Both the position numbers and the translations under genes were made by a program. A model generated the notes under the pieces. It was not told where the DNA came from and ran no database searches. It saw only the letters and a list, made by a program, of their open reading frames with translations. From Chondrosia reniformis (lineage: Eukaryota; Porifera; Demospongiae; Chondrillida; Chondrillidae), in assembly GCA_947172415.1 (NCBI GenBank), contig OX359202.1:4698899-4762898 (forward strand): a stretch of 64,000 nucleotides of DNA, read 5' to 3'. Positions 18,802-59,011 of the stretch are shown here, piece by piece (position 1 is the first letter of the stretch; every line of letters begins with the position of its first letter).

Positions 18802-18971
18802 CAGGGCTGCATAGAGGGGGGGCAGGGGGATTCCCCCCCAGGATTGATTTTGTCCCATTAGACTTTTCGGAACCCCCTAAACTGCTTTGACACCCTCATA
18901 TCATTACCCCCCCTAAATGTTGAAAATATTCATTTCCCCCCCTCTGGCCCCAAGTTCTGCATGCAGCCCTG
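18802..18971. mobile_element. CAGGGCTGCA MITE, SCYL1-A intron 9
   Basis: CAGGGCTGCATAGAGG at the start and GCATGCAGCCCTG at the end are inverted. The interior is strongly C-rich on this strand (CCCCCC runs). The end style suggests a hAT-like non-autonomous element, but no clear 8-bp target duplication could be read. The same insertion is in copy B at 30181-30347. Confidence 0.65.
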
Positions 18972-20596: not shown

Positions 20597-20855
20597 GCAC
20601 CATTTTCTTACTGTGCATGCTATGTATACTTTAGGCTTATAGAACTAAGGGAGGCTAAAGGCTTATAGGGAACTAAACCTAGTGAGAGCTTTGGATGCAA
20701 ATATGAGATTTTTCTCCTTCTACTTCTCCTTCTCCACGGGGCCTGACAGCTTTTTCTGGGAATTCCACCCTTCATCATTAACCCTGGAAATATTGTTTTC
20801 TTCTTGATCTTTTGTGAGTACTGGGCTCTTTGTCCCAAATCTAGGGGTCTTACAT
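20597..20855 (+). repeat. Dispersed repeat family (CCTATAGGGAACTAAACC), copy 1
   Basis: It starts CACCATTTTCTTAC..GCATGCTA and contains GGGAACTAAACCTAGTGAGA and a TTTCTCCTTCTACTTCTCC tract. Other copies: 31890-32115, 43020-43185, reversed at 62960-63150, and short pieces near 19195-19275 (reverse) and 44365-44435. All lie in introns of SCYL1, HAP2 or MED17. No coding capacity was seen. It may be a SINE or MITE. Confidence 0.65.
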
Positions 20856-21639
20856 ACACAATTAACAATGTATTATTGTTTGTTCATATTAGCATACTCT
20901 CCAAATCATGTAACAATTGTACTTCATTGTAGAGCATGGTACTGTTAGCTCTAAAACTTGATTCAAAGATACTCAATGGCAGCTTATTAAAATTCTTAGC
21001 TAAATGTCAGCTGGATCAGGAGGTAAACCTGTTATCTGTTATGTCTTTCTCTAAACATCTGAAAATGTTTATTATGCAAACATCTCTACTAATGCAACCT
21101 CTTTATTTATGTCTACTGCAGCCACCAATTAGAGCCAACACAACAGTCGTCATTGCGAAAATAGCCCAAATAGCCCCTTATTTGGATAAAGGAGTACGTT
21201 AATTGGTACACAACATATCCAATCACCTAGCTTGTAACAAGCTAATTACATTTGGTAGTGACTTACATATCTATATCCTTGCATTCTGTAGACAAAACAT
21301 AAAATCCTATCTTCTGCCTTCTTGAGGCCCTTAAAGGACCCCTTTCCTGCAGCTAAAATGGCTGGCTTGAGTGGTTTGGCTTCCACAAAAGACAGTTTCC
21401 CTCCCAATGAAATTGCTAGCAAAATACTACCTACCTTATGTCAGGTACTGTTGGACAGTGACAAAGCTGTTAGAGAAAAGGTAATTCGTTAACTTTCTTG
21501 AGAGTCCTCGAGCTCAACCAATCAAAACTATTGCTGGATGGTTTCTCAGCCACTGGAATGCATACAGCAGCTATTGAAAGGACTAATTATATATATATAT
21601 TTAATGACACACCCACAAAATGATGTGAGACACAAATAC

Positions 21640-27600: not shown

Positions 27601-30600
27601 GTTGAGTGCTGCCATTTCCCACTCTATCCGGGCAGAACAACCACTAAAGTTATTACTAAACATGTTTTTTGAACGTATGTATTCCTGTTCTGTAACATGT
27701 GTAGATTCCAAAGCCTCTAGTTCCCCACTACTGTCAGCTGGTGTCGGCTAACCCGAGAAGCAGACCAGAGCCAAAGGTCCTTCTGAATGAAATGAGAGCT
27801 CACGGAGGCTATTTGGCAGGCCCACTCATGAGCTTGGCTGTGGGAATCGAAGAACTACATGTGAGGATTTGAAATTGGATTATGCCGTCAATCCTACATA
27901 TACATATTAGCACTACGCATACAAGTTTACGTGTTCTTCTTTGTTAGGTAATGGAGGCTGCTAGTCGGAAAGACTTCCTTATTGAATTAGACAAACACTT
28001 GGATAGATTTCCAAAACAGTTCTGCATGAAGAAGCTTTTGCCACAGTTGGTCACGTCCTTCCAATTTGGGAACGCTGGCATATCAATTCTGCAACCGCTT
28101 ATAAAGGTATGTACTGTACATATGCTATTATGCAGTGGATGTGAACATGTGACATTTCTGTACTGACTTATTCTCCTACCTACTGAATAAGTATAGCATA
28201 ATATATCATAGAGTACGGTAGTACTCTATAAGTAGGGATGGCCGAAAAAAAACATGGCCGCCCTATTCAATGTATTATCAATTAACACCTCATAAATCAA
28301 CAACGTTCAGATTTTCGGTTGCATTTGTGTGTTTGCAGTCGTTTTTGCATGCTTTTCTAAACGCCAAAACATGTTACGATGCTCTACAACCTTCGCAAAG
28401 TGGTTAAACCGAAATAGGCCAAATTCTGCAATTCCTCATTTTTTCTTCTTCTTCTTCTTCTTCTTCTTCTTCTTCTTCTTTTTTCAAATGAGCTAGCGCT
28501 AACATGCGAACTTACGCAGGTACATACAAATACTAAATCGTCATGAATGTTTCCGAACTAGGGAATAGGCTACCCTAGATTTCAACGCGCTCCAACCGAA
28601 GCGTGTTACTTTTGAAAGTGCCCAATTTAGGGCCTCTTTGAACGCCATTTTTTAATTAAGTTTCAAATTCTCTGTATATAAAATAAGTAACCCGAATGAG
28701 TAATATTTGTGGTACTGCCGTTACCCGCGATCGAATTTTTTAGTCGCTTTGCAGGGCCTATATACAGTCGTATTCTTAACGATTATGGACCCTTTAATAT
28801 CCTAAACTGAATGTTAAAGAACGGTAGAAAACATCTTATCAAATTTGGGATCTTTTCGGACGCCATTTTTTAATTTAGAGCTCTCTATTATATCGTCTAT
28901 TCTGCTACTTTATTTCGAGTTTTCGCCAAGAAAACTTTTAAAACAAATATTAACAAGAAAAAAGGAGCAATACAAGTTAAATAAAAACATTCAAAAATGA
29001 AGTTAAAAGTAGGGATGGCACTATAACAGTGATTGGCACATCTAGAAAAAGTAACGAAACAAGAAAGTGATCATATGGTAAGGCTAACATTGCAGAAGTG
29101 GCATACTGAAACTTAACTATACACATCACTTCTATGTTTGGGCGCATCGATCCCTACTTCTAGTATATCCATGATGCGCCCAAACATAGAAGTGATGTGT
29201 ATAGTTAAGTTTCAGTATGCCACTTCTGCAATGTTAGCCTTACCATATGATCACTTTCTTGTTTCGTTACTTTTTCTAGATGTGCCAATCACTGTTATAG
29301 TGCCATCCCTACTTTTAACTTCATTTTTGAATGTTTTTATTTAACTTTAAGGTATAGGACCACAGAATATTAAAGCCAATTAGTAATCTAAGTGATAATC
29401 AGTGTGAGGGAGATTAAAGCCTAATTGGAACTCAGGACAGCTGGCTGTGACCACAAGGTTCTGTCACTGAATTACCACAACACTTGCTTCTGTACTCCCT
29501 ACAAGTCTACAAACTAATTACATTATTATTAGTCTCCATGTGTACTAATTTGTGATACTCTATTCATCTGAACAAACTGAGATTTACAGTAGAACCTAAT
29601 TATTAGTTGTAATAAACTTAAGGATTCCAGCTGAATCGATTCATTAAATGATATTACTAGTCCTTGCTACCTCCATTATTATGAGCGTACTTCAACCATT
29701 GGATGACATACATACGTATGTATATGCAAAAATCATACCATTCTTAATAGACACGCCAAGTACTATGACTGCCTCTCTACAATGTATATACTATACGTTT
29801 TACCTAAACAATAATGTAGTACTGACTAAGGAGGTCTACCTGTACTCTTTTAACTTTGCTTCTGACAGAGGCACATTTTAGGAGAACTTTCCATATCACA
29901 CAAGATAAGCACAGTTAATTTTCTGTTTATTTCCATGTGTACAATACAAACATAGTTAGTATGTGTTTAAACTGTACATGTGATGTACGTACTATATATT
30001 ACATTTAATCACAGGTAGGCCAGTGGTTGGATGACAAGGAGTATCAGACTAGTGTTGTACCTGCTATTGTTAAGCTGTTTTCATCATCTGACCGGTCAAT
30101 TAGAGTTCAACTCCTCAAACAGGTCTGTGCTTCATATTTACATAACAATTAATCATGCACACATCCAACATTTGTGTTTGCAGGGCTGCATAGAGGGGGG
30201 CAGGGGGATTCCCCCCCCCCAGGATTGATTTTGCCCCACTAGACTTTTCGGAACCCCCTAAACTGCTCACCCTCATATCATTGCCCCCCTAAATTTTGAA
30301 AATTTTCATTTCCCCCCCTCTGGCCCCAAGTTCTGCATGCAGCCCTGCCTGGCTATCCTGGTTTGTGTATCTTCAAAGAACTAGCCAGCATTTGTGTTTG
30401 TCTAGCCCTTATAAACTAGCCTATAGCCTGGTAATTCATTGTATTAGCAAGTTAATTAAGTAATTTTCTGCCACTTTAAAGTGTTGTATTTATGTCTATA
30501 TGTACACTTTCAATGTACTAACCTCATTAATTAGCTAGTATTTCATAACACAGCTGGGGAAGCACGTTTGTGGTCCAGTAAGTGTACAGTACATACCTAC

Positions 30601-33600
30601 TTACATATTGAACTGATAACAAGTTTCCAATTCATCCCTAAGTTGGGTTATTATAACTCGTACCAATAAACTTTCCTTTTAACTGGTTTTATGAGATTGT
30701 GAACTCAAATAACAGATATATCTATTTTATGACAAACTAGGCAGACGTAAAGAGATATACGTACATACATATATACAAGATGAGTGTAGTGTGCTATGTA
30801 CGTACATGAGTACATGTATACTGTAAAACCTTAATATTAGCACGTCATTAATGTTAGTGAAATTATTGATACGATATCATGTACTAATATTTATGGTTCC
30901 TAAAGTGTTTATTATTACAGATGCCCACACAACTGGGTAGTGTGGAGCGAGTATTCTGAACAAAACGTTAAATTTAATTAAATCATATATGATAAAACAC
31001 TATATACGTATAATTGACATTAATATTAGTGATTTTACAGTATATATATGCATCTCTATATTAGTTTGTTAACTTGTTGCTTACTGTATACTCTTAGTCA
31101 TCATATGTACATAAGTACATAGAATTTTGTACACTTTGTATATGTATATCCACCATTTCCTAGAGACATGGTTGACATCAATAGGTGGCCATGGTGAAAG
31201 ACTTACAATGGGCTGATTTCCTGAATGTGTTACTTAGGAAAACCCTAGAACTTTGGAAGAGGAAACATATTGACATTTACACCCGTTGTTCTTCCAATCG
31301 TCATTTTAGTCAATCAACTGGTTCCTATTCTTAACAGTGTCCTCCCCCCTTAACAAAGCCATTCTCATAATCATCTTTAGGGTAATCCCCCTAGTTTTAG
31401 TTGTCTAACTACCACTTAGATTGGTTGAATCTTGAAGTTTTTTCTCCAATATATCTTTTTACATGTACAGTATTACATGTGTTAAGAATCAAATTATAGG
31501 GTTTATGCTGTATTGTGTTTTAATTGTATTGCATAGTTTCATTACAAATCATGTTCTGCAATACATTATCTGACCACTTTACTAACTATAGTTGAGTAAT
31601 TTTGCTGAACAGCTGAGACCCGCAACTGTCAGTAACGACATATTTCCAAACCTCTGTATGGGGTTCACTGATACAGTACCAGCCATCAGAGAGGAAACAG
31701 TGAAGGTATGTACCAAGCCTTGCATGAAGACGGTCCAATGGCTCATTACTGTAACTAATTGAACATCTATGTAGGGTAGCATAAAGTTATTTCATTATTT
31801 CTATAACATCAAGTTGCTTCGCGCAATTTACTATTTTCTTTTATTATCTTTCAGAGATTTGTAAACCTTCAATATAATGAATCATCAATGCACCATTTTC
31901 TTACTGTGCATGCTATGTATACTTTAGAGTAAAAGGCTTATAGGGAACTAAACCTAGTGAGAGCTTTGGATGAAAATACAAGAGTTTTCTCCTTCTACTT
32001 CTCCTTCTCCACTGGGCCAGACAGGTTTTTCTGGGAATTCCACCCTTCATCTGGAAATCTTTGTTTTCTTCTTGATCTTTTGTGAATACTGGGCTCTTTG
32101 TCCTAAATCTAGGGTCTTACATACACAATTAACAATGTATTATTGTTTGCTTATATTATTATGTTCTTCATGTCATGTAACAATTGTACTTCATTGTAGA
32201 GCATGGTACTGTTAGCTCCAAAACTTGACTCAAAGATACTCAATGGCAGCTTATTAAAATTCCTAGCTAAATGTCAGCTGGATCAGGAGGTAAACCTGTT
32301 ATTTGTTGTGTCTTTCTCTAAACATCTGAAAATGTCTACAAACAACTGAAAATATTTATTATACAAACATCTCCACTACTGCAGCCACCGATTAGAGCCA
32401 ATACAACAGTCGTGATTGCCAAAATAGCTCCTTATTTGGATAAAGGAGTACGTTAATTGATACACAACATATCCAATCACCTAGCTTATAACAAGCTTAT
32501 TACATTTGGTAGTGACTTACTTACATATCTATATCCTTGCATTCTGTAGACAAAGCATAAAATCCTATCTTCTGCCTTCTTGAGGCCCTTAAAGGACCCC
32601 TTTCCTGCAGCTAAAATGGCTGGCTTGAGTGGTCTGGCTTCCACAAATGACTGTTTCCCTCCCAATGAAATTGCTAACAAAATACTACCTACCTTATGTC
32701 AGGTACTGCTGGACAGTGACAAAACTGTTAGAGAAAAGGTAAACTGCTTGCCAGAGTAAATAGGAATACATGTATGTACATATTCACTGAAGTAAGGGAG
32801 TTAATTGCACTTGGCCTGTACAAATGCTCTGATGATATTCACTGGAAAACATTACACTAAACCAGCCAATTGACCGCAGTCTAATCTTAATGAACCCAAA
32901 TGAGGGCAAAACAGCTGTCTGTGGTTCTTTGATGAATTTTTCCATCTTGGATGACTGGGAGGCAATCACTGGTTGCCAATTTAATATAACTTTCAAATTG
33001 GTCCCCCAGCCAAGATTGACTGCCGTCACTTGGCTGCATGGTTCTGCGTAACATTTTCCCATACATATTCACTGTATGGTCTGGTTAGTAGCAGTGCAAA
33101 AAATTCACAAAGTTTCAAAACCTTTTGTCTGCAGACCTTCATCAGTTGAATAACGTGGTTATATCTAACACTTTAACTATGGAAAGCTCATTAACTAACC
33201 CTCACCCCTCTAATAGCTAGCAGTGAACCTCTATTCTATCATATTCACTATTATTATGCTAATAACCTTTTTTTTCAACTGAAAGGCCTTCCAGACCCTT
33301 GATGTTTTAGTGGCAGTTCTTAAGGATCATTCGAGTAAAATGGAAGCAGGTGGAAGTGATGGTATGGAAGGATCATGCATATAGCTTGTACTAGCTAGCT
33401 ATATTTAGGTAGACAAGTAATTAATCTTGGAAACTCCATATAGCTGATCACAGCAAAGCCTCGTGGTCATCATGGACACAGGGATTTTCCCTTTCCAAGT
33501 TTTACAACAAAAAGGAACGTTCAAATGACGTGCCTTCAGCACACAAGGAGGAAGGCGAAAAGAAGACAGATAATTCCGAAGGAGTGAAGTCATCAGACAG

Positions 33601-37224: not shown

Positions 37225-39638
37225 CTCCCAGTTTCTTATCTCCCAATTTCTTATGGTATATATTCTTGTAAAGTTTGGCTTGTGATATACTTGACATGAT
37301 TTGGATTTCATTATATAGCTGTAGATGGGGATCATATTACACTTAGGAAAGTCATGCAGTAAAAATCTGAAGTATATACATGTATAGGAATTTTCAAATT
37401 GGATTTTGGAACAACCACACAAGGCCAAATGTCAGGTTGCAAAAGGTATGAAGCCGTGCAGGCAGATCAAAAACAGTGCAATACGCACGTACGTCATTTC
37501 AATTAAAAGATTAGGTTTCAATATATACAAATTATATAAATGCATGGAACCTGAAATATGGTTCTGCATTATATGGAATTGCAACTATTATGATGATATT
37601 ACTGTATAGTTGAATGCCGGCAGTTCCCATGCAGTTATAGGGTCCTAGCTATCACAGGATCAAATCTCAGGTTAAAAAAACAAGACACTGATTGTATGAT
37701 AAGGCTAATCATACAGAAGTTGCATATACACTGAAATTTAAGTAACTTAACCATACACTTCTGTGTTTGGGCGCACCATTCAGTGTATATGCAACTACTG
37801 TATGATTAGCCTTATCATATAATCAGTGTCTTTTTGCAGATGTATTAGTGAACACTGCCATTCCTACTTCCAACATCATTTTTGTAAATGTTTTTTATTT
37901 ACTTGTATATAGTACGGTTTCAGTCTATATACAATCTAAAATCTCTAGATGCTGATCAGAAATTTCATGATCAGTTATCAATGGTATACTCAAAAACAGA
38001 AATGATGTGTAACTAAGTAACCTATTTCAGTATGCCAATACTGTATATGGTGTGCTGTATCTCTCGTGGGTCACTGTTTTGTTTCAATACTTTTTCCAGA
38101 TGTATACTATTCATTGTTGCAACACTGGCCATCCCTAACTTCTGACTTCATTTTTTAACTATTATATTTATACACGTACACATTGAAAGCTTTCAGAACT
38201 TTCAGTTTCAAAAATATGATCTATGGTATGTACAAACTCATGAAACCTGAGATGCATATGTAGTTGAAATTACAGGTTTAACTTTCAGTACCCATACAGT
38301 TATAGGACCCTAATTTGTAGGAAATGCCATCATGTATTCTAATAATTCCAGGGAATTTTGCAATTGATGTACGCATATATACAGAATGGAATTATGCACT
38401 TTTTATATAGACTGTACAAGAGTACTAGTATTTACGTATACATGCATTATATATACGTATATACGTACGTATATATATATATATATATATAGTACAATTT
38501 CAGTCTTTCACCTTACATACATATAGTAATATTTGTATGTTTGTATAATGGAGATTTTTTGGGCATGTACTGATCAGGATGCCCCAAAATGTACCATGCA
38601 GCAGAGATGGCAAATGGTAAGTACTTTCAACCCACTATTGGTGCATGTGCCGAGCTGGAGAGGGGAAGGCCAAGTACTACACTACCAGTGATGAGACCAT
38701 CTGTGCAACAAAGTTGATTTTAACTTGAAACAGCTATAACACCAAACAGGCCCAAGTGGAGCCAACTGTCAAGGAGAATAGCTGAAGTGGCAGCGGTAAT
38801 AGTGCACGCATGTATTTGTGTTTAGAAACTTGCAGTTTGTATATAACACAAAAGTGCTTCATACCATTTAATCCTTTGGAAAGTGCATAACAAGCAAGGA
38901 GAGTATAGATATGGGCTATCTTTCCATGTAAGTGACTGGTTTGAGGGCATGCATCGCTGCATGCACATGATCAGAAAATCACAACCTGATATACCAAAAA
39001 GGAAAGATGAATAGTAGATATGAACATATGCATGCAATTATAAATGTTACAGTAGAAACACTTGTAAAATGAGATTAAAAGTATAGGGATGGCAGTCCAT
39101 GGGACTAGCACATGATCTAGAAATGAAGCAAGACATGTAAGGCTAACCATGCAGAAGTGGCATATCTACTGAAATTTATATAATTAACTGCATCACTCCA
39201 TAATTTGGGCGCATCATGATACAATTTTTAGACGATATATGCATCCAAGATCAATAAAGATTACATGTACATCTATTACTATATAGGCTAGCGTGCCATG
39301 AAAGGGAAGAAAATGAGGAAATCCGTAAGTAGGCCCATAGCTGTTCCACCTACTTACAGTCATTAATCACTTTTTCAGATTAGTTAATTAATATTGTACA
39401 AAAAGCTGTTTTGGAAGCTTAAAAAGCTAAAAATAGGGCGGCCATGTTCTTTTCGTACCATCCTATTCGCTTGATATTACATTTTAATTTAGTCATAATA
39501 GAGAAGATAACCAACACCTATAACTTATATAGTTAGAAACAAGCACGTGGATTTAAGACGCGCAGACTTTCGCGGCTATTGGAAACATGTTTGAATCGAC
39601 CAATTGCAATCCAGTAACAAGTGGCAGCAAATTTTGTG
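37225..39638. other. Head-to-head intergenic region with fold-back remnants
   Basis: It separates the starts of the rolling-stone-like and HAP2 genes. It contains fold-back family copies at about 37677-37905 (AAGACACTGATTGTATGAT inverted as ATCATATAATCAGTGTCTT), a partial copy near 38000-38170 and a third near 39060-39210. A TATA/TACGTA simple repeat lies at 38450-38492. Short frames here show no gene-like character. Confidence 0.5.
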
Positions 39639-42600
39639 ATGGTGGTGATGCTATTGCCTGGCTTTCAAACAAACATTTTCTTTCTCTCTGTATTTGTTAC
39701 ATTTTCTCGGAGTAGCCTTATTAGTCAAAGTCATGTAAGTCTTTGTGAGCGTTCTTCTGCAGAACCGACTTCACCAGATGGCGTTCCTTGTGAGAAGAAA
39801 ATTGTCGTTACAATGGGTCTGAAAGCAGGCCAAAAGTCCGGAAGCGAGTCATTGTATGCTAATATTGATCAAATATACGAAGAAGGAAGTACAGAACTCA
39901 GTCGACTAAAGAAACCATTTAAAGTAGAAATACACAAATCTCCTGCACTCATCAGTTATGAACTCTACTATAGAGGGGTGAGTGGATTCACTATGGGCCA
40001 TATTACACGTCATGCAATCTAGATCTGTGGTTGGTAATTTTGAGCATCAGCAACTATTATAGTGATTCACAAGTTTGAAAGTTTCTATACTTCACTTCAC
40101 TTACCTTAAGGGTCAAAACGTTCAAACCTAAGTGTTGCTAATGCATAATGATCCAACAAGTATATACCCCTTATCATTTCATGTCCATCTGTATATATAC
40201 ATTCATCCATTCCATCATATCTACATATACGTATATGCGTATAATACTTAGCCTTCACCTATCTCAATATGTACATATATATATAATAGTCTGCTAATGC
40301 AAAGCCACATGAAGAAAGTACACTTCAGAGGGATTGCCGTGATCATTGGGAGCTACCTGTCTCCGAGTTGGCTTGTGGGAAATTTCATGATGGTACATCA
40401 TATGTTTTTAACAGTCAGGGATTTTGCTGTGTGTGTTCTCTTGGTGGCATACTCCACCTTGATGAAGGAATAGATAACATAAGAGGTAACCATAGCTGTC
40501 ATCTGTTTGGAGGAGTCCATGCTTCAGCACACTGTCTGCGGTTCCATGACTTGTGGTCAGTAACCAATACTAGTCTGTATATGAAATAAATTTGTACCTA
40601 TAGTTATTGAAAAGCACCGAATCAATATACTTGGAAAATCCCTACGTTAAAGGTTTTAAGTACATTTCATATATACCATATGAAACCTGAGATTTGGTGC
40701 TGTGATAAATGTAGTGTATCTAGCCGTAGGTCAAACAGGATTAATGGGATGACCGATGGGCTTGCACTATTATACATACAATAGGTCACATGATCGGGTT
40801 ATGCATTAGCAAATTAGAGGTTCATGCGGGTGCTTATGCAATAGTCACATGGGCGAGGAAGGTAGACACAGTCTGCACATTCATGCTAGTTTGCATGTGG
40901 TTGCTTGTGGACCTTTGGTCATCAGCTATAGATTGTTTGATGTTTGATAAATTGATGCTGATGTCGTACATTATATACGGAGCATCAACATCTAATTATA
41001 AAAATCTTGACTATAAAGTCACGTATCATCTAGGATCATGAGTACATTATTCATATTATATATACGTAAGTCTTGTTATATATACGCCAGTATATCTATA
41101 TATACAATATATGAGCTTCATATTATGTACAAGAAACTAAATATATACTCAATATACTTACTTAAGAAGAGCATATATAATATTAGAACTATAGTGAGGG
41201 TACCATGTATAAAAAGGGTCTGCATACGTACGTACATGCAATATATAAATTAGTTGCAGTAAACTGTATTATCTCATTTCCTGAAATATATACTCTTTCA
41301 GGTATGATGTCTATGAAATTGGTCCTGGTCTGTTGTATTACAATATAAGCATTGATATAGCAGAGTTTGGTGGGATTGAAGAGAAGTCACCAAATGGCTT
41401 TAATGTCATATGGAGACCACTGTCATCTTTTAGTGTCAGTCCAGAGGTCCCAATCAGAAGATCCGAAAATGGAAAAGTCTGTATTTAATATACATAGTTT
41501 ATTTTACGTAGGCATATGCATATTTTATATATGCTATATATTACACTTGCATGTGCACAGCTGACCATTTTAATGATATGCTGCTTACGTATAATATATT
41601 ATGTATATAATTTGTAGGTTGTTGCTGAAATACATGGTGAACTGCTTGGAGGCACATTTGTCAAAGATTTTTCAACCAAGTACCTTTTAATACCAAACAT
41701 AATTCACTGGCCAAAAAATCAAGAGCCACCAGTACAATACAACGTGAGGACCTATGCAGGCATACAGTGTAACTATACATGCATGTATATATATACAGTG
41801 AATCCTCGATCGAGGATGGCGGAGTCTACTAGCGCTGCGAAGCCTAAGCGAAAGAGAACAGTTTTAAGTATTGAATCTATACGTGTTTTGTTGGCGTGCT
41901 TGATCGTCCAAAGAAATCGTTCTACTGTTCTACATATTTGATTGTATTTCACTTATCCGAACTTTTCACTTATCCGAACAAAATTTTTGTGCCATTTGAC
42001 CAATGGGGTTCGGATAACTGAGGATTCACTGTATATGCATCCAATATGTGTAGAATGAATTAAATAATTTATTCTGTGTGTAATATATTCCTATTGTATA
42101 GAATGGTCCTTCAGACTGGTTGATTGTGGACAAACATGATGTTGATCTGTCTGGAAGGACTTGTAACAGAGTTGGAACATACTTTACAGCATTTAGGACA
42201 CAGACTAAACCTTGTCAACAGGATCAGGGAAGGTCAGCGTCTTAGTATTTCAAATTTGTATATATACTACATATATATGTGCATATACGTATGTAGCATA
42301 CACATACATATATTACACAACATCATGTTTTCCCTCTTCTTAATGTTTGAGAATGATTATATACTTGTGGTTTGATTATCACTAAGATTATTCATATATA
42401 ATAGGTATCCATTGCCAATGTCACAGTGCACATGTGTATTTTATTACTGGATTATTTTGCCAAACAATTATATATGATAGTAATTAAATAGCTGATGAAC
42501 CAAATGCTAGGGGGACCACAAAGTCCCTACCATGTAAGTGCTGAGGGACCAAGTCCTAAATGCGCTTGATTAGTACTCATGCATGCATGATCAATTTTGA

Positions 42601-43737
42601 CATACGTACTCAATTACAATTCAAAAACACAATATAAGTTTAGTGCTATATACGTATACATATATTGACTTGATATACGTATACATACGTACATATAATT
42701 ATAATATCATTTATGTATATGTACGTATATGTGTAGCTGTTTACACAATCAGCCTTTAGATATATGGAATGGAGATAATGTGAGTTCAGTATACTTGTAG
42801 CTACATGTATCTGCTTAGACAGTATGTACGTATATGATTTATGTATATACATTGTATGGACATTGATATTAAATTTGGTCAATTATTAGGACTTTAACAC
42901 ACGTCTTGAATGGTTCACTTCAAAATTTACTCAAGACGTGTGTTAAAGTCCTAATAATTGACCCAATTTAATATATATCAAATTAGCATGTCTAATAACA
43001 TTATATGAATACGCCATTTTTCTTACATGCTACATCTACGTACTTACTAGTACAGGCCTATAGGGAAATAAACCTAGTGAGAGCTTTGGATGAGGATACA
43101 AGATTTTTCTCCTTCTACTTCTCTTCTCCACTGGACCAGATACGTAGCTGTTTCTGGGAATTCCACTATCACCTGTATTTATGTATATTTGCAGACACTT
43201 AGACAAGGAGGGAACCAAGGACACTATATGTTACAATATTTTGGAGATATTCACGAATCTACAACAGCTGAGAATGGCTCTGTGGTACTAAAATTCAAGT
43301 ATTCAGATTTTCAGAACACACTTGTTACGTTCCACATAGATGCATCAGACTTAACATTTGTCTATTCAGTGTGAGTGTCTTCCAGTATGAAATGTATATA
43401 CTGGTTTATATAGGCTACATATTAATTACGTAAGTGATATACATATATATGTATATGATCTTATAATATAATATACGTACGTATATGACAATGTACATAT
43501 ATATATTCATTTATATACACAAAGAGCAAGTGGAAGGATAGTAAATGTTTATGCCACCAATTTCAAGGCTCTCTCAGAAAGTGGGTTTGTCTATGTAGAG
43601 GTGGAGAATACTGGAGAAGTTTCATCTGAATTCTCAGTGAGTTATTTATTAAAAGCATCATGGTTGTACAGTATATACTGTGCATGCATGTGCAGTTGTA
43701 TTACAGTGGAATCTCATTATAAAGAAGCTCAAATGGG

Positions 43738-46042: not shown

Positions 46043-47007
46043 TATATACAACTATAATTCCCTATATGTGTACATGTTATTGAATCATTACAACAAGATT
46101 GATATTATAACTTGTGTATATATATATTCAGTTCCAGTTGATAAAACTTTCATGGTCAAAAATGTTGCTAAATTATTACAAAGCACGTACTATAAATCAT
46201 CTTCATGTTGCAATCTACATAATGTACATTTTGTTTTGTGCATGTTAAATCAAACTGACCTCTTTCTCTAATTACATATTAATTAACATGGTTTTCTCAA
46301 ATATCCATGTAATTCCTCTCATATACATAGAGCAAAAGATATGATTTCAACCTACGTACCTTTATAACTTACATTTAAGCTTTAAATGGATCAATAACAG
46401 CTAATATGTTATACAAGTTCTTGTACGATTACAGTGCATTTATGTTGCTTCAATCATGGAACTCAAACCTTTAATTCCATTGAATAAAGAAGGCTTATTA
46501 TATATGGAAACTTCAAGTCATGTTATAGGTTATGTTTATGCATTGAAATTATGTCAAATTCCTAAGATTAATTGATTTTGATTGGTATCCATTCTAATTA
46601 AATCCTTTAATTTATACATTTCAATGTAAGATATGAACCAGTGTTACTAAAGCTTATTTTAAGGTACAAAGTCACTGGCCACTTGATAATAAATCTTAAG
46701 GGCCATATAACGAAAAATAATAATCTTCCATGTGAATATTAGCATCAATTGACAGCATGAACCTACTGTATCATGATCATAATGGGGTAAAAGACTACAG
46801 GACAGACAATTCTATGTCTTCAGGCAGGCCAATAACTTCATTATGTATAAAATTATAAGGTTTTATTTTAAACACTTCTGAAATCTGTAATTAGGTATAT
46901 ATGGCTACACATCTGTATCGCCTGATCAGACTCAACTAATATACCAATTTAGGATCAGTAAATCATTTGTATGCCTTCCCTGAAGTATTGTACATATGAC
47001 TGCTATA
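46043..47007. other. AT-rich region between HAP2 and the satellite
   Basis: No exon, transposon or RNA gene was recognised. It should include the HAP2 3' UTR. Confidence 0.35.
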
Positions 47008-48540
47008 CGAAGTTAATGTATGGTGAGAGATAGGGTAAATTTGAGTTGATATCAAAATTTGCAAAACTCATTGGAAGCCTTTCATACATCCCTGTGAATA
47101 TTGAGAGATATGAAGCTAATTCTTTGTGTCAGCATTCACAGACATCTATAGAGCATATCCAATGAGTTTTTGAAATTTTGATGAAACTTAAAATTTCCTT
47201 ATCTCTCACCATATACATTAACTTTGTATGGCAGATATTTCGGTACATTAAGGGTTGTAACTCCAACAAACATTAAGATGTGAAGCCAATACTGGATGTC
47301 AGCATTCACAGACATGCATGAAACATTTCCAAAGAATTTTAGAAGTTTCAATTTTTGTTCATATTTGCCCTATCTCTCACCATACATTAACTTTGTATAC
47401 CAGAATTTAATGTTCACTGAGGGCTGTCACTCCATCAAATGGAGAGATATGAAGCTAAATCTTTGTGTAAGCATTCACAGACATTAATAGAGCATATCCA
47501 AGGAGTTTTTGAAATTTTGATGAAACTTAAAATTTGCCCTATCTCTCACAATACATTAATTTTGTATACCAGAATTTAATGTTCAATGAGGGCTGTCACT
47601 CAATCAAATGGAGAGATATGAAGCTAAATCTTTGTGTAAGCATTCACAGACATCTATAGAGCATGTCCAATGGGTTTTTGAAATTTTGATGAAACTTAAA
47701 ATTTGCCCTATCTCTAACCATACATTACTAGAATTTAATGTTCATTGAGGGCTGTCACTCCATCAAATGGAGAGATATGAAGCTAATTCTTTTTGTCAGC
47801 ATCCACAGACATCTATAGAGCATTTCCAATGTGTCAGCAATCACAGACATCTATAGAGCATGTCCAATGGGTTTTTGGAATTTTGATGAAACTTAAAATT
47901 TGCCCTATCTCTCACCATACATTAACTTTGTATACCAGAATTTAATGTTTATTGAGGGCTGTCACTCAATCAAATGGAGAGATATGAAGCTAATTCTTTC
48001 TGTCAGCATTCACAGACATCTAATAAAAACGGCCTAGTTGAAATATCGATCATAGACATTAATATCGTACAGGCGATAAATATCGGACCTCTCACTATAT
48101 CTAGTTTTTTGTATCATGAATAGTCGCTCTCCTCCCTCCACCAAGACACATACAGGCTTTTATCCATTTGCCACAGTTTTGAGATGTATTGGAAATACTG
48201 CGTATGTGTGTAAAATTGCTTGGAACGATTGACTGGTCTGGAATTAAAGTGGAATAAATTGACGAATTCTCGAAAATAATTGGGATCAGAAAAGTCGTTC
48301 TCCTCGGCCCATCAAGACACCTACAGGATTTTTTTCGCTTTTCCCAGTTTTCAGGTGAACCACTAATACTGCCTATGTCTTTAAACTTGCTTGAAACAAT
48401 TCACTGATCTGGAAATAACGAGAAATATATTAAAAAAGGTCCCAACCACAACCGTTTTCTTTGGACAAAACTTCATATAAATAGAAGCGAAAAACCTTAT
48501 ATAGTAGGCCTACCTGGACACATCTCTATGGTGGTTGCGG

Positions 48541-49283
48541 TGTCATAGTCATTAATGACTCCCCCACTGAGGGACTCCCCAGTCTGTGAGGCCTAGGTGT
48601 GAATGACTCCCAAGTCACTATTGCCTAGGTGTGAATGACTCCCCACTCACATTCGCCTAGGCATGAATGAATCCCTTCTAGATGAAATGACTCCCTGGGA
48701 GTCATTCCTGCCTAGAGGTGTTACTGACCCCTTGCACATTCGTTGCTCATTTGAGGACGACACGTTGAACAGGAATTTTCGAAAGCAGCAGCAAGCAAAG
48801 GTGCATGTTAAAACATGGTTACAAGATGAACACAGTAAGATGTATAAACTGTTACAAGACAAGAACTACCTGCAAGCAAAGCACAACCATGTGTCAGGTG
48901 ATTGGTTCACCTTGATGTTAACACACTTAAAGTGAAACCACAATTGGCATGAGTCGCACTGAATCATGTGAAGATCATATGATTCAGGCAGTGCACATGT
49001 GCAGTGAACAGAGATGAAGATGTGTTTCATCCGCTTCCTTTTTCCTGGCTGTGACTGGTTGGAGAGTGGAAATGGCTCCAAGGATTGTTGCTCTATGCAG
49101 CGGAGCAAATGTACATCTCAACAGTAGCAAACTCCTCCATGGCACCCTTTCCGACCGTCACAGCATTTCAGTTTGCCGCCAAAATGGGTGGGGAGTCACT
49201 CCCACCCAAGGGACGTCATTTCCGCCTAAGGCGCTAATGACGGGGGAGTCACTCCCGACGGGGAGTCATTTACGCCTCTGACA
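48541..49283 (-). mobile_element. Ginger-like DNA transposon remnant with 4-bp target duplication
   Basis: The empty site is visible in the other two spacer copies (GGTTGCGGTTCCC). Here the sequence reads GCGG-TGTCATAGTCATTAATGACT ... GGAGTCATTTACGCCTCTGACA-GCGG, so GCGG is duplicated. The ends are inverted TGTCA/TGACA, with sub-terminal GACTCCC repeats in both orientations. TGTNR ends with 4-bp duplications are characteristic of Ginger transposons, whose transposase is related to Gypsy-type integrases. That assignment is inference, since no integrase core remains. Confidence 0.75.
48866..49108 (-). pseudogene. PHD-finger C-terminal fragment inside the transposon
   Basis: The minus-strand frame includes VHCTCALPESYDLHMIQCD, SCQLWFHFKCVNIKV and SPDTWLCFACR, then a stop. 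The spacing CxC...CxxC...HxxC...CxxC is a complete PHD finger, a reader-type zinc finger of about 50 residues. It is the C-terminal end of a longer element protein whose other domains are deleted. The first ATG-like codon is not meaningful. Confidence 0.75.
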
Positions 49284-52200
49284 GCGGTTCCCATAGAGGT
49301 TGGTAGCGCTTAGACTCTGAAGCTGTCTCCTAATCGGTTGGTGCCATAGAGACGTGCTCACCAATAATCCGGATTTCGGGGGGGTTCCACGTAATGTGGG
49401 ATTGGCATCTGATATCTAAGGATTCATATGAGTCGGCCATATCGAGAAGAACTGGTTCTTCTCACGCAAGTGACACCCAAAGCTCAACTCGGCAGAGCGT
49501 TACCACCGATCCCGGCCTATGAGCGTCGTGGATGGTAGCGTTCGGTATGGTCCAACTTTTTTTCTTTGGAGTTTCGTTGGCTGTCGATTGACGAAATTTC
49601 ACTTTAACGAGATCCATATAAAATATACGTATGGATAGGGAGTACTTCAATAACAATCAAGTACTACACAGTGCATATCCATATGTATAAAAAATTGGAA
49701 AGTATTCTAGATTTTTAGATATAGTATGGAATTTCTGACTTTATTATAACATAATACCTTCTAACGGTCGGCCATATATAGTATTACGCAATATTCTTTA
49801 ACAAAAGAGTACAATTAACTGTAGTTCTGTTACTCTATCAAATGGAGAGATATGAAGCTAATTCTTTGTGTCAGCATTCACAGACATCTATAGAGCATGT
49901 CCAATGGGTTTTTGAAATTTTGCTGAAACTTAAAATTTGCCCTATCTCTCACCATACATTAACTTTGTATACCAGAATTTAATGTTCATTGAGGGCTGTC
50001 ACTCAATCAAATGGAGAGAATGAAGCTAATTCTTTGTGTCAGCAATCACAGACATCTATAGAACATGTCCAATGGGTTTTTGGAATTTTGATGAAACTTA
50101 AAATTTGCCCTATATCTCACCATACATTAACTTTGTATACCAGAATTTAATGTTCATTGAGGGCTGTCACTCAATCAAATGGAGAGATATGAAGCTAATT
50201 CCTTGCGTCAGCATTCACAGACATCTATAGAGCATGTCCAATGGGTTTTTGGAATTTTGATGAAACTTAAAATTTGCCTTATATCTCACCATACATTAAC
50301 TTTGTATACCAGAATTTAATGTTCATTGAGGGCTGTCACTCAATCAAATGGAGAGATATGAAGCTAATTCTTTGTGTCAGCATTCACAGACATCCATAGA
50401 GCATGTCCAATGGGTTTTTGAAATTTTAATGAAACTTAAAATTTGCCCTATCTCTCACCATACGAACATTAACTTTGTATACCAGAATTTAATGTTCATT
50501 GAGGGCTGTCACTCAATCAAATGGAGAGATATGAAGCTAATTCTTTGTGTCAGCAATCACAGACATCTATAGAGCATGTTCAATGGGTTTTTGGAATTTT
50601 GATGAAACTTAAAATTTGCCCTATATCTCACAATACATTAACTTTGTATACCAGAATTCAATGTTCATTGAGGGCTGTCACTCAATCAAATGGAGAGATA
50701 TGAAGCTAATTCTTTGTGTCAGCATTCACATACATCTATAGAGCATGTCCAATGGGTTTTTGAAATTTTGATGAAACTTAAAATTTGCCCTATCTCTCAC
50801 AATACATTAACTTTTTATGGCAGATATTTCTGTACATTAAGGGTCGGTCATAACTACAACAAACATCAAGATGTGATTCTAATACTTGCTGTCAGCATTC
50901 ACAGATATGTATGAAACATTTCCAAAGAGTTTTTAGAAGTTTAATATTTTTGTTCATATTTGCTCTATCTCTCACCATACATTACTTTGCATGGCAGATA
51001 TTTCTGTACATTAAGGGATGTCACTCAATCCAATGGAGAGATATGAAGCTAAATCTCTATGTCAGCATTCACAGGCATCTATAAAGCATGTCCAATGGGT
51101 TTTTGAAATTTTGAAGAAACTTAAAATTTGCCCTATCTCTCATAATACATTAACTTTGCATACCAGAATTTAATGTTCATTGAGGGCTGTCACTCCATTA
51201 AATGGAGAGATATGAAGCTAATTCTTTTTCTCAGCATCCACAGACATCTATAGAGCATTTCCAATGGGTTTTTGAAATTTTTATGAAACTTAAAATTTGC
51301 CCTATCTCTCACAATACATTAACTTTGCAAAACAGAATTTAATGTTCATTGAGGGCTGTCACTCCATCAAATGGAGAGATATGAAGCTAATTCTTTTTCT
51401 CAGCATCCACAGACATCTATAGAGCATTTCCAATGGGTTTTTGAAATTTTATGAAACTTAAAATTTGCCATATCTCTCACCATACAATAACTTTGTATAC
51501 CAGAATTTAATGTTCATTGAGGGCTGTCACTCAATCAAATGGAGAGATATGAAGCTAATTCTTTGTGTCAGCATTCACAGACATCTATAGTGAAATTTTG
51601 ATGAAACTTAAAATTTGTCCTATCTCTCACCATACTTATATTAACTTTGCACACCAGAATTTAATGTTCATTGTGGGCTGCCACTCCATCAAATGGAGAG
51701 ATATGAAGCTAATTCCTTGTGTCAGCATTCACAGACATCTATAGAGCATGTCCAATGGGTTTTTGGAATTTTGATGAAACTTAAAATTTGCCCTATCTCT
51801 CACCATACATTAACTTTGTATACCAGAATTTAATGTTCATTGAGGGCTGTCACTCAATCAAATGGAGAGATATGAAGCTCATTCTTTGTGTCAGCATTCA
51901 CAGACATCTATAGAGCATATACAATGAGTTTTTGAAATTTTGATGAAACTTAAAATTTGCCCTATCTCTCACAATACATTAACTTTATATAGCAGATATT
52001 TCTGTACATTAATTAAGGGTCGTAACTCCAACAAACATCAGGATGTGATTCTAATACTTGATGTCAGCATTCACAGACATGTATGAAACATTTTCAAAGA
52101 ATTGTAGAAGTTACAATTTTTGTTCATATTTGCCCTATCTCTAACCATACATTAACTTTGCATGGCAGATATTTCTGTACATTAAGGGATGTCACTCAAT

Positions 52201-52590
52201 CAAATGGAGAGATATGAAGCTAAATCTGTATGTCAGCATTCACAGACATTAATAGAGCATATCCAATGAGTTTTTGAAATTTTGATGGAACTTAAAATTT
52301 GCCCTATCTCTCACAATACATTAACTTTGCATACCAGAATTTAATGTTTATTGAGGGCTGTCACTCAATCAAATGGAGAGATATGAAGCTAATTCTTTGC
52401 GTCAGCATTCACAGACATCTATAGAGCATGTCCAATGGGTTTTTGGAATTTTGATGAAACTTAAAATTTGCCCTATCTCTCACCATACATTAACTTTGTA
52501 TACCAGAATTTAATGTTTATTGAGGGCTGTCACTCCATCAAATGGAGAGGTATGAAGCTATATAATTCTTTCTGTCAGCATTCACAGACA

Positions 52591-53660
52591 TCTAATAAAA
52601 CCGGCCTAGTTGAAATATCGATCATAGACATTAATATCGTACAGGCGATAAATATCGGACCTCTCACTATATCTAGTTTTTTGTATCATGAAAAGTCGCT
52701 CTCCTCCCTCCACCAAGACACATACAGGCTTTTATCCATTTGCCACAGTTTTGAGATGTATTGGAAATACTGCGTATGTGTAAAATTGCTTGGAACGATT
52801 GACTGGTCTGGAATTAAAGTGGAATAAATTGACGAATTCTCGAAAATAATTGGGATCAGAAAAGTCGTTCTCCTCGGCCCATCAAGACACCTACAGGATT
52901 TTTTTCGCTTTTCCCAGTTTTCAGGTGAACCACTAATACTGCCTATGTCTTTAAACTTGCTTGAAACAATTCACTGATCTGGAAATAACGAGAAATATAT
53001 TAAAAAAGGTCCCAACCACAACCGTTTTCTTTGGACAAAACTTCATATAAATAGAAGCGAAAAACCTTATATAGTAGGCCTACCTGGACACATCTCTATG
53101 GTGGTTGCGGTTCCCATAGAGGTTGGTAGCGCTTAGACTCTGAAGCTGTCTCCTAATCGGTTGGTGCCATAGAGACGTGCTCACCAATAATCCGGATTTC
53201 GGGGGGGTTCCACGTAATGTGGGATTGGCATCTGATATCTAAGGATTCATATGAGTCGGCCATATCGAGAAGAACTGGTTCTTCTCACGCAAGTGACACC
53301 CAAAGCTCAACTCGGCAGAGCGTTACCACCGATCCCGGCCTATGAGCGTCGTGGATGGTAGCGTTCGGTATGGTCCAACTTTTTTTCTTTGGAGTTTCGT
53401 TGGCTGTCGATTGACGAAATTTCACTTTAACGAGATCCATATAAAATATACGTATGGATAGGGAGTACTTCAATAACAATCAAGTACTACACAGTGCATA
53501 TCCATATGTATAAAAAATTGGAAAGTATTCTAGATTTTTAGATATAGTATGGAATTTCTGACTTTATTATAATATTATACCTTCTAACGGTCGGCCATAT
53601 ATAGTATTACGCAATTTTCTTTAACAAAAGAGTACAATTAACTGTAGTTCTGTTACTCTA
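52591..53660 (+). repeat. Satellite spacer unit, copy 2
   Basis: About 1,070 bp, uninterrupted, near-identical to copy 3, with the same flanking satellite variant (ATGAAGCTATATAATTC). Part of the higher-order repeat. Confidence 0.92.
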
Positions 53661-56460
53661 TCAAATGGAGAGATATGAAGCTAATTCTTTGTGTCAGCAT
53701 TCACAGACATCTATAGAGCATGTCCAATGGGTTTTTGAAATTTTGATGAAACTTAAAATTTACCCTATATCTCACAATACATTAACTTTGTATAGCAGAT
53801 ATTTCTGTACATTAATTAAGGGTTGTAACTCCAACAAACATCAAGATGTGATTCTAATACTTGATGTCAGCATTCACAGACATGTATGAAACATTTCCAA
53901 AGAATTGTAAAAGTTACAATGTTTGTTCATATTTGCCCTATATCTAACCATACATTACCAGAATTTAATGTTCATTGAGGGCTGTCACTCCGGGATCCAT
54001 CAAATGGAGAGATATGAAGCTAATTCTTTTTCTCAGCATCCACAGACATCTATAGAGCGTGTCCAATGGGTTTTCGAAATTTTGATGAAACTTAAAATTT
54101 GCCCTATCTCTCACCATACGAACATTAACTTTGCATACCAGAATTTAATGTTCATTGAGGGCTGCCACTCAATCAAATGGAGAGATATGAAGCTAATTCC
54201 TTGCGTCAGCATTCACAGACATCTATAGAGCATGTTCAATGGGTTTTTGGAATTTTGATGAAACATAAAATTTTCCCTATATATTTCTCACCATACATTA
54301 ACTTTGTATACCAGAATTTAATGTTCATTGAGGGCTGTCACTCAATCAAATGGAGAGATATGAAGCTAAGTCTTTGTGTCAGCATTCACAGACATCTATA
54401 GAGCATGTCCAATGGGTTTTTGAAATTTTGATGAAACTTAAAATTTGCCCTATCTCTCACCATACTTACATTAACTTTGTATACCAGAATTTAATGTTCA
54501 TTGAAGGCTGCCACTCAATCAAATGGAGACATATGAAGCTAATTCCTTGCGTCAGCATTCACAGACATCTATAGAGCATGTCCAATAGGTTTTTGGAATT
54601 TTGATGAAACTTAAAATTTGCCCTATATCTCACCATACATTAACTTTGTACACCAGAATTTAATGTTCATTGAGGGCTGTCACTCCATCAAATGGAGAGA
54701 TATGAAGCTAATTCTTTGTATCAGCAATCACAGACATCTATAGAGCATGTCCAATGGGTTTTTGGAATTTTTATGAAACTTAAAATTTGCCCTATCTCTC
54801 ACCATACTTACATTAACTTTGTATACCAGAATTTAATGTTCATTGTGGGCTGCCACTCCATCAAATGGAGAGATATGAAGCTAATTCCTTGCGTCAGCAT
54901 TCACAGACATCTATAGAGCATGTCCAATGGGTTTTTGGAATTTTGATGAAACTTAAAATTTGCCCTATATCTCACTATACATTAACTTTGTACACCAGAA
55001 TTTAATGTTCATTGAGGGCTGTCACTCAATCAAATGGAGAGATATGAAGCTAATTCTTTGTATCAGCAATCACAGACATCTATAGAGCATGTCCAATGGG
55101 TTTTTGGAATTTTGATGAAACTTAAAATTTTCACTATATATATCTCACCATACATTAACTTTGTATACCAGAATTTAATGTTCATTGAGGGCTGTCACTC
55201 AATCAAATGGAGAGATATGAAGCTAATTCTTTGTGTCAGCATTCACAGACATCTATAGAGCATGTCCAATGGGTTTTTGAAATTTTTATGAAACTTAAAA
55301 TTTGCCCTATCTCTCACCATACTTACATTAACTTTGTATACCAGAATTTAATGTTCATTGTGGGCTGCCACTCCATCAAATGGAGAGATATGAAGCTAAT
55401 TCTTTGTGTCAGCATTCACAGACATCTATAGAGCATGTCCAATGGGTTTTTGGAATTTTGATGAAACTTAAAATTTTCCCTATATATATCTCACCATACA
55501 TTAACTTTGTATACCAGAATTTAATGTTCATTGAGGGCTGTCACTCAATCAAATGGAGAGATATGAAGCTAATTCTTTGTGTCAGCATTCACAGACATCT
55601 ATAGAGCATGTCCAATGGGTTTTTGGAATTTTGATGAAACTTAAAATTTTCCCTATATATATCTCACCATACATTAACTTTGTATACCAGAATTTAATGT
55701 TCATTGAGGGCTGTCACTCAATCAAATGGAGAGATATGAAGCTAATTCTTTATGTCAGCATTCACAGACATCTATAGAGCATGTCCAATGAGTTTTTGGA
55801 ATTTTGATGAAACTTAAAATTTGCCCTATCTCTCACCATACTTACATTAACTTTGTATACCAGAATTTAATGTTCATTGTGGGCTGCCACTCCATCAAAT
55901 GGAGAGATATGAAGCTAATTCCTTGCGTCAGCATTCACAGACATCTATAGAGCATGTCCAATGGGTTTTTGGAATTTTGATGAAACTTAAAATTTTCCCT
56001 ATATATATCTCACCATACATTAACTTTGTATACCAGAATTTAATGTTCATTGAGGGCTGTCACTCAATCAAATGGAGAGATATGAAGCTAATTCTTTATG
56101 TCAGCATTCACAGACATCTATAGAACATGTCTGTTAGGTTTTTGGAATTTTGATGAAATTTAAAATTTGCACTATATCTCACAATACATTAACTTTGTAT
56201 ACCAGAATTTAATGTTCATTGAGGGCTGTCACTCAATCAAATGGAGAGATATGAAGCTAATTCTTTGTGTCAGCAATCACAGACATCTATAGAGCATGTC
56301 CAATGGGTTTTTGGAATTTTGATGAAACTTAAAATTTGCCCTATCTCTCACCATACATTAACTTTGTATACCAGAATTTAATGTTTATTGAGGGCTGTCA
56401 CTCCATCAAATGGAGAGGTATGAAGCTATATAATTCTTTCTGTCAGCATTCACAGACATC

Positions 56461-57530
56461 TAATAAAACCGGCCTAGTTGAAATATCGATCATAGACATT
56501 AATATCGTACAGGCGATAAATATCGGACCTCTCACTATATCTAGTTTTTTGTATCATGAAAAGTCGCTCTCCTCCCTCCACCAAGACACATACAGGCTTT
56601 TATCCATTTGCCACAGTTTTGAGATGTATTGGAAATACTGCGTATGTGTGTAAAATTGCTTGGAACGATTGACTGGTCTGGAATTAAAGTGGAATAAATT
56701 GACGAATTCTCGAAAATAATTGGGATCAGAAAAGTCGTTCTCCTCGGCCCATCAAGACACCTACAGGATTTTTTTCGCTTTTCCCAGTTTTCAGGTGAAC
56801 CACTAATACTGCCTATGTCTTTAAACTTGCTTGAAACAATTCACTGATCTGGAAATAACGAGAAATATATTAAAAAAGGTCCCAACCACAACCGTTTTCT
56901 TTGGACAAAACTTCATATAAATAGAAGCGAAAAACCTTATATAGTAGGCCTACCTGGACACATCTCTATGGTGGTTGCGGTTCCCATAGAGGTTGGTAGC
57001 GCTTAGACTCTGAAGCTGTCTCCTAATCGGTTGGTGCCATAGAGACGTGCTCACCAATAATCCGGATTTCGGGGGGGTTCCACGTAATGTGGGATTGGCA
57101 TCTGATATCTAAGGATTCATATGAGTCGGCCATATCGAGAAGAACTGGTTCTTCTCACGCAAGTGACACCCAAAGCTCAACTCGGCAGAGCGTTACCACC
57201 GATCCCGGCCTATGAGCGTCGTGGATGGTAGCGTTCGGTATGGTCCAACTTTTTTTCTTTGGAGTTTCGTTGGCTGTCGATTGACGAAATTTCACTTTAA
57301 CGAGATCCATATAAAATATACGTATGGATAGGGAGTACTTCAATAACAATCAAGTACTACACAGTGCATATCCATATGTATAAAAAATTGGAAAGTATTC
57401 TAGATTTTTAGATATAGTATGGAATTTCTCTTTATTATAATATTATACCTTCTAACGGTCGGCCATATATAGTATTACGCAATTTTCTTATACAAAAGAG
57501 TACAATTAACTGTAGTTCTGTTACTCTATC
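56461..57530 (+). repeat. Satellite spacer unit, copy 3
   Basis: About 1,070 bp. It differs from copy 2 by a few small indels (TGTGTG near 56645, loss of GAC near 57429). The distance from copy 2 start is 3,870 bp. The copy 1-to-2 distance less the insertion is about 3,828 bp. Confidence 0.92.
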
Positions 57531-58545
57531 AAATGGAGAGATATGAAGCTAATTCTTTGTGTCAGCATTCACAGACATCTATAGAGCATGTCCAATGGGG
57601 TTTTGAAATTTTGATGAAACTTAAAATTTGCCCTATCTCTCACCATACATTAACTTTGAATACCAGAATTTAATGTTCATTGAGGGCTGTCACTCCATCA
57701 AATGGAGAGATATGAAGCTAATTCTTTGTGTCTGCATCCACAGACATCTATAGAACATGTCCAATGGGTTTTTGAAATTTTGATGAAACTTAAAATTTGC
57801 CCTATATATCTCTCACCATACATTAACTTTGCATACCAGAATTTATTGTTCATTGAGGGCTGTCACTCCATCGAATGGAAATCTAGAGATATGAAGCTGA
57901 TTCCTTGTGTCAGCTTTCACAGACATCTATAGAGCATATCCAATTGGTTTTTGAAATTTTGATGAAACTTAAAATTTGCCTTATCTCTCACCATACATAA
58001 ACTTTGTATGGCAGATATTTCTGTACATTAAGGGTCGTAACTCCAACAAACATCAAGATGTGAAGCCTATACTGGATGTCAGCATTCACAGACATGCATG
58101 AAGCATTTCCAAAGTGTTTTAGAAGTTTCAATGTTTCTCATATTTGCCCTATCTCTCACCATACATTAACTTTGTATGACAGATTTTAATGTACATTAAG
58201 GGCCGTATATAATTCCAACAAACATCTAGATGTGATTCTAATACTTGATGTCAGCATTCACAGACATGTATGAAACATTTCCAAAGAATTTTAGAAGTTT
58301 CAATTTTTGTTCATATTTGCCCTATCTCTCACAATACATTAACTTTGTATGGCAGATATTTCTGTACATTAAGGGCCGTATATAACTCCAACAAACATCT
58401 AGATGTGATTCTAATACTTGATGTCAGCATTCACGAAACATTTCCAAAGAGTTTTAGAAGTTTCAATTTTTGTTCATATTTGCCCTATCTCTCACCATAC
58501 ATTAACTTTGTATAGCAGATTTTTCTGTACATTAAGGGTCGTATA

Positions 58546-59011
58546 TATGCAAGTTAGTGGGTATATATGTAAAACCACCACAATATATATTATTGGTGGC
58601 AATAGTCTACTATTTGCAATACTTCTTGCAAGAAATCAACCAAATTTGGAGGAGACTTCCACCACATTTCCATGCAAGAGAGCTTAAGTATACATTTTGA
58701 CACTTATATATACGTATTTCCTATCATGTCCTTGTGTACAAGTTACAACTCAGTAGCCATATATATATATGTATGTGTTGATGCAATCACATGGCACCTA
58801 CGTACATGTATATATATGTACGTACCTCCCCTCAATTGTATATCAAATCTGCTACATTAATTAACTGAGTATTGTATTGTAAATAAGACTGGTTCAGAGT
58901 CTGTGACACAAGTGACAGTAGAGTATATATGCTGGACCTATCTCATGTATGAGTGAACACACGATAAATTGTATTACAAAGAGAATCAAAAGCGTCCACA
59001 ATCTGTAATGA
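58546..59011. other. Region between satellite and MED17 3' end
   Basis: AT-rich, with TATATA and TACGTAC runs. No gene seen. It presumably contains the MED17 3' UTR. Confidence 0.35.

Follow-up and report, generated by a model that had tools for sequence, protein, structure and literature searches.

As described in the respective reports, rodent 4.5SH RNA is encoded by hundreds of Pol III gene copies, each lying in a tandem repeat of 4-5 kb (PMC7279448), and the RNA itself is about 100 nt long, derives from 7SL RNA and has internal A and B boxes (PMC3440375, PMC10137851). The 5S rDNA of pike is described as having more than 20,000 copies with variable spacers at many loci, including higher-order blocks and inversions (PMC5437419), and RNU2, the U2 snRNA gene, is described as a tandemly repeated gene of the snRNA type (PMC3795722).

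A satellite array of the sponge Chondrosia reniformis resembles these systems in some respects and differs from them in others. Like rodent 4.5SH, it holds a multicopy family in a kilobase-scale tandem repeat; unlike 4.5SH, its candidate RNA measures ~310 nt and has an external PSE/TATA-like promoter, its spacer is a 173-bp satellite, and its arrays occupy at least 12 chromosomes. With pike 5S rDNA it shares high copy number, variable spacers, many loci and inversions and, given the >20,000 copies in pike, the ~750 copies in the sponge are not in themselves extreme. In contrast to 5S rDNA, the sponge RNA has no 5S match in Rfam and its promoter lies upstream instead of within the gene. Like RNU2, the sponge gene is snRNA-type and tandemly repeated, but the RNA is not U2, ends in a T-run and is encoded in many dispersed arrays as opposed to one locus. 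In the sponge's own RNase P RNA gene, a PSE and a TATAAATA-like box are spaced as they are in the array, and a T-run (T5) follows downstream, as in the sponge block. This gene has one genome match, and by short-word blastn its RNA shows no similarity to that of the block.

We think it likely that the ~1.06-kb 'spacer' of this array encodes a structured non-coding RNA, about 305-315 nt in length, and that the 173-bp satellite separates the gene copies, in the manner of rDNA. The multicopy gene family would be new and, as judged from sequence features, is probably transcribed by Pol III.

The array and its embedded units

The window, by which we mean the whole 64-kb stretch that was analyzed, corresponds to positions 4698899-4762898 of contig 14 (chromosome 14) in the C. 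reniformis assembly, which comprises 117,379,552 bases in 15 contigs. From 47.0 to 58.55 kb it consists of 169/173-bp satellite monomers in which three ~1.06-kb units are embedded (Table 1). Tandem Repeats Finder (TRF) reported 169/173-bp arrays at 47103-47831, 49827-52594, 57518-58376 and 57974-58547 and a further array, given as 346-bp dimers, at 53650-56462. The commonest k-mer offsets within the window include 173, 3870, 169, 342, 346, 3823 and 3868. These results bear out the 173-bp monomer spacing described in an earlier note on this DNA, and TRF likewise agrees with its estimate of ~16 monomers between neighbouring spacers. The three near-identical spacers reported there are also present, as units of ~1.06 kb with pairwise identities of 99-100%, each comprising two diverged ~147-bp repeats and a core richer in GC. 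The distance from unit 1 to unit 2 is 4572 bp, or about 3830 bp once the 742-bp insertion in unit 1 is subtracted, and that from unit 2 to unit 3 is 3868 bp, in line with the previously noted values of ~3.83 and 3.87 kb. Because its RNA is interrupted 36 nt from the start, the copy of the RNA gene in unit 1 is probably dead.

Table 1. Positions in the window of the satellite blocks, the candidate gene units and their parts
Feature	Position	Strand	Remark
Inverted partial monomer, left edge of the array	47000..47104	-	Accounts for 25 of 46 inverted pairs, the longest ones; complementarity of 70-80% with many monomers
173-bp monomers, first block	47105..48021	+	TRF; blastn map
Gene unit 1 (~1.06 kb plus 742-bp insertion)	48022..49826	+	99% identity to unit 2 on either side of the insertion
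PSE-like element, unit 1, AACCACAACCGTTTTC	48444..48459	+	One of three equal best matrix hits
RNA region of unit 1, split by the insertion 36 nt in	48506..49563	+	
MITE-like 742-bp insertion in unit 1 RNA	48542..49283	.	Imperfect TIRs GTCA...TGAC; 5-bp duplication GCGGT
173/169-bp monomers, ~16 copies	49827..52593	+	TRF
Gene unit 2, intact	52594..53649	+	40 scored genome matches including units 2 and 3, 97-100% identity
Two diverged ~147-bp repeats 5' of the promoter, unit 2	52685..53001	+	Unit positions 92-237 and 262-408; 74-77% identity
PSE-like element, unit 2, AACCACAACCGTTTTCT	53014..53030	+	Element common to U1/U2 and RNase P promoters; per-position P 4.8e-7
TATA-like box TATAAATA, unit 2	53046..53053	+	Distance from PSE equal to that of CATAAATA in the RNase P gene, by eye
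RNA region, unit 2, ~311 nt, near-invariant, T7 at end	53076..53386	+	Estimated start 53071-53080, going by the spacing in the U1 and RNase P genes
173/169-bp monomers, ~16 copies	53650..56461	+	TRF
Gene unit 3, intact	56462..57517	+	99% identity to unit 2
PSE-like element, unit 3	56884..56900	+	One of three equal best matrix hits
RNA region, unit 3	56946..57256	+	Identical to unit 2 RNA
173-bp monomers, last block	57518..58547	+	TRF

Searching the genome for a 40-mer from the core of the unit returned 708 exact copies, or 749 with up to three mismatches, and 0 genome-wide matches to the reversed-pattern control. A second 40-mer was taken from the 5' flank and matches the genome at 336 sites with up to three mismatches; the 100 matches listed are exact throughout and are spread over 12 of the 14 chromosomal contigs. 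Comparison of the two totals, with no pairing of the pieces at single copies, indicates that the core is retained without the 5'-flank piece in over half of the family. The unit is therefore found elsewhere in the genome, where the earlier note had advised looking for it, and at least 12 of the 14 chromosomes carry it; the satellite, too, occurs on other chromosomes. The same note had considered that the three blocks might be an assembly duplication. The assembly reads are HiFi at about 70x with a mean length of about 13 kb, as derived from counts in the available text of the assembly paper (PMC12181767); because of this coverage and read length, and because the unit occurs on at least 12 chromosomes, an assembly artefact behind the array is unlikely.

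On contig 1, 67 exact core 40-mers form 23 clusters (gap >20 kb), and 37 successive distances of less than 7 kb range from 1454 to 6213 bp, some of which may be too long since only exact core 40-mers were used and inexact copies were skipped. Because unit length varies on contig 1, the 3.85-kb period proposed before holds locally in the window but is not a genome-wide period.

Promoter and terminator of the candidate gene

Genes for U6, U2 and U1 were located in the genome, with 2, 6 and 7 matches, respectively, as were those for SRP, RNase P and MRP RNA, with one each. ACCACAA with a T-rich continuation lies 5' of the four U1 loci (of 7 matches) and six U2 loci that were read. Among these ten loci the element reads AACCACAA in nine and GACCACAA in one, and it begins 57 nt 5' of the RNA in nine listed U1/U2 loci. 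In the RNase P RNA gene, AACCACAA is located 66 nt upstream of the RNA. The 110 nt upstream of the U6 and MRP genes do not contain AACCACAA, so that among the presumed Pol III genes RNase P alone backs the PSE match.

A PSE matrix trained on U1/U2/RNase P promoters (eight training sites) found its best three hits in the 64-kb window in the three gene units. Its chance rate was 94 of 195.4 million random positions (P 4.8e-7 per position). The score of the units, 18.1, is lower than that of all eight training sites (24.2-32.8), and one of ten random 64-kb sequences exceeded it (18.8 vs 18.1). As a random sequence of this length can outscore the units, the PSE match carries weight through its position just 5' of the invariant block. 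Across 27 unique copies of the unit, AACCACAA is invariant and TATAAATA varies at its second base only (TTTAAATA in some arrays), and the linker and upstream sequence are more variable than either element. In the older array L040, 12 of 56 promoter positions are changed and the PSE core is retained.

The near-invariant block ends in T7 in the window (T-run 53380-53386), and a T-run of at least five T is present in all 11 distinct RNA sequences, four of which have a change in it. Internal A and B boxes occur in the block only with 2 and 3 mismatches. The PSE-like element, the TATA box at a fixed distance and the T-run terminator are the features of a type 3 Pol III gene, and we infer that the block may be transcribed, by polymerase III.

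Constraint on the block and candidate identities of its predicted RNA

In an alignment of 30 units, a biased sample made up of the best-scoring ones, two columns are variable in 53069-53368, as against flank columns that vary throughout. Older arrays allow the same comparison at greater divergence. The block of L039 has 3/312 differences vs 39/422 in its 5' flank, that of L042 has 6/315 vs 34/423 and 47/264 in its flanks, and that of L040 has 6/312 vs 46/225 in its 3' flank; overall, the flanks of old arrays diverge by 8-20% and the RNA block by 1-2%. Eight extra loci with a core match were picked for their absence among the listed exact flank matches. Their units are 89-94% identical to those of the window where alignable, and seven of the eight have two to four differences from the window RNA outside the T-run, L063 having more. 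On these sequence comparisons, the near-invariant block is under constraint relative to its flanks.

The predicted fold of the window RNA has a z-score of -2.33 (2/100 shuffles as good), and an alternative cut of the block stretch gave -1.15 (26/200 shuffles as good); the folding energy is thus only modestly better than chance. The pattern of substitutions was assessed on all but one of 52 full copies; these comprise 48 copies and four long variants, from loci that overlap and are not all different places. Among the 27 unique copies, ten substitution events lie outside the T-run, of which seven are unpaired, three keep a pair and none breaks one; the null mean for pair-breaking changes is 4.6-4.7 (P 0.0003-0.0007, for predicted pairs). 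Double compensatory changes were found in 0 of 106 predicted pairs. The one full copy dropped by the extraction filter was the decayed L063, in which four of five additional substitutions break predicted pairs; when it is included, 4/15 substitutions are pair-breaking (P 0.012).

These data bear on the possibility that the array is a non-functional satellite whose block is uniform through gene conversion or recent amplification alone. Copies in tandem arrays are able to recombine, and those from one array or chromosome tend to have a variant in common, as this explanation would predict. We nevertheless consider it unlikely, since the block has the same history as its flanks and yet, in old arrays, differs by 1-2% where they differ by 8-20%. 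Moreover, the conserved footprint extends over the PSE and the larger part of the TATA-like box and less over the linker, and substitutions spare predicted pairs, with the exception of one decayed copy.

The block has no Rfam match at the gathering threshold, and lax thresholds yielded weak, chance-level matches only. SRP, RNase P, RNase MRP, U1, U2 and U6 RNAs were rejected as candidates: none has a covariance-model match in the block, and their genes were located elsewhere. A blastn comparison of the block with the SRP, RNase P, MRP, U1, U2 and U6 loci detected no similarity. Telomerase RNA was discarded as well, the TTAGGG template being absent and the longest (CCCTAA)n match being 5 nt. 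A search covering mainly literature outside subscription found nothing on this RNA or satellite in Chondrosia, and the available text of the assembly paper gives 784 non-coding genes (PMC12181767). A peptide- or protein-coding reading does not hold either, as frames of 36 and 42 codons are disrupted or altered in copies L005 and L042, and the sole frame unchanged across the three copies compared has 12 codons. Features of snoRNAs and Sm sites were not found in the block or amounted to scattered short motifs, and the ARAGORN scan placed no tRNA within the array. A pattern scan for relatives gave 0 hits in viral contigs and 0 in genome contigs, in collections without a sponge set.

Length, promoter type and terminator of the block would all fit an amplified, very divergent 7SK RNA, 7SK being a Pol III RNA of about 310-330 nt with a paired GAUC motif near its 5' end. 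This identity is quite unlikely, as the block has no Rfam match to 7SK, lax thresholds included, and contains a single GATC, at position 256. The genome-wide search with RF00100 gave no 7SK match, and its controls gave no match either.

Dispersal of the units and neighbouring genes

The loci sampled (38 from searches plus 12 fetched regions, some overlapping, of ~750 copies) differ in arrangement. In L040, L063, L064 and L065 the gene is antiparallel to the surrounding monomers, and the promoter linker has diverged with retention of the AACCACAA core; L061 and L062 have monomers in both orientations. L004, L005, L007 and L008, a single lineage found on contigs 2 and 8, have a longer RNA form in which 29 nt are inserted where the fold is unpaired. 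By eye, part of the insertion resembles the GCTTCGGCAG stretch of U6.

Dispersal over the genome could be expected of a mobile element that is non-autonomous and has tandem repeats inside it. Such an element would also accommodate the inverted monomer at the left edge of the window array and, in the single-unit array L042, the location of the two apparent ends near one monomer phase. Yet 13 apparent array ends, inspected by eye, have no common terminus, nor do they have the constant inverted termini of a TIR DNA transposon, and the gene lies within or adjoins satellite in all loci mapped, which makes such an element very unlikely. Because the array ends lack a common terminus, recombination or circle reintegration would fit the spread of the units better than transposition. 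The array had originally been read as a higher-order satellite, with centromeric function as a possibility; the nested repeat produced by tandem amplification stands, but not the centromeric sense. We found small dispersed arrays with a spacing of 1.5-6.2 kb in place of a large chromosome-specific array of fixed multimers, and with its dispersed arrays, variable unit length and conserved promoter-to-terminator block this is not a higher-order satellite of the centromeric type. For all its 169/173-bp monomers in nested units, a centromeric or subtelomeric satellite is extremely unlikely: a chromosome has many arrays, each of few units (contig 1 has 23 clusters), unit length is variable, and ~3.6 kb separate the window array from the HAP2 exons. 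No feature observed in the analysis suggests a role at centromeres or subtelomeres.

We see an about even chance of a more specific proposal: an undescribed, lineage-restricted and essential structured Pol III RNA, whose ~750 near-identical genes occupy nearly all chromosomes in two or more gene/satellite orientations and include at least one longer form (the 29-nt insertion), and whose satellite persists because it carries the gene. Under the broader, likely reading of the block as an RNA gene, the RNA would probably act within an RNP. RNA polymerase III would initiate near 53071-53080, directed by an external promoter of the snRNA type (a PSE with a TATA-like box), and terminate in the T-run 53380-53386. 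Unequal exchange within arrays may set copy number and unit length, and an unspecified process would carry units from one chromosome to another. The RNA and its promoter could be under purifying selection that keeps the block near-invariant as flanks and monomers drift, with conversion, together with selection, keeping the RNA uniform. By analogy with rDNA and 4.5SH genes, the many Pol III gene copies would supply abundant RNA, and we infer that the RNA may be required in large amounts.

If the RNA-gene reading is correct, the RNA would be an abundant one new to animal biology, and the array would show that a 'satellite' may separate the copies of a dispersed RNA gene family; the satellites of other genomes may then merit the same check. 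The many copies, each with a near-invariant gene and a drifting spacer, would make the contributions of concerted evolution and selection directly measurable.

The array was earlier placed between HAP2 and MED17. On its left, exons of the HAP2/GCS1 gamete-fusion factor at 39618-43371 support the first assignment, with Pfam matches to PF10699 (HAP2) in three of the eight frames tried on this side, of which one scores below the curated cut-off; MED17 was not confirmed by Pfam in the 12 right-hand frames tried. Left of HAP2 there is also a direct duplication (15023-21484 / 25041-32742), whose pieces are 78-93% identical at an offset of about 10.0-11.5 kb. ARAGORN predicts a tRNA-Cys with anticodon ACA inside its first copy. 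At 165-926, a 69-bp minisatellite of eleven copies lies in a 325-codon open frame on the - strand, in which it encodes 23-residue repeats.
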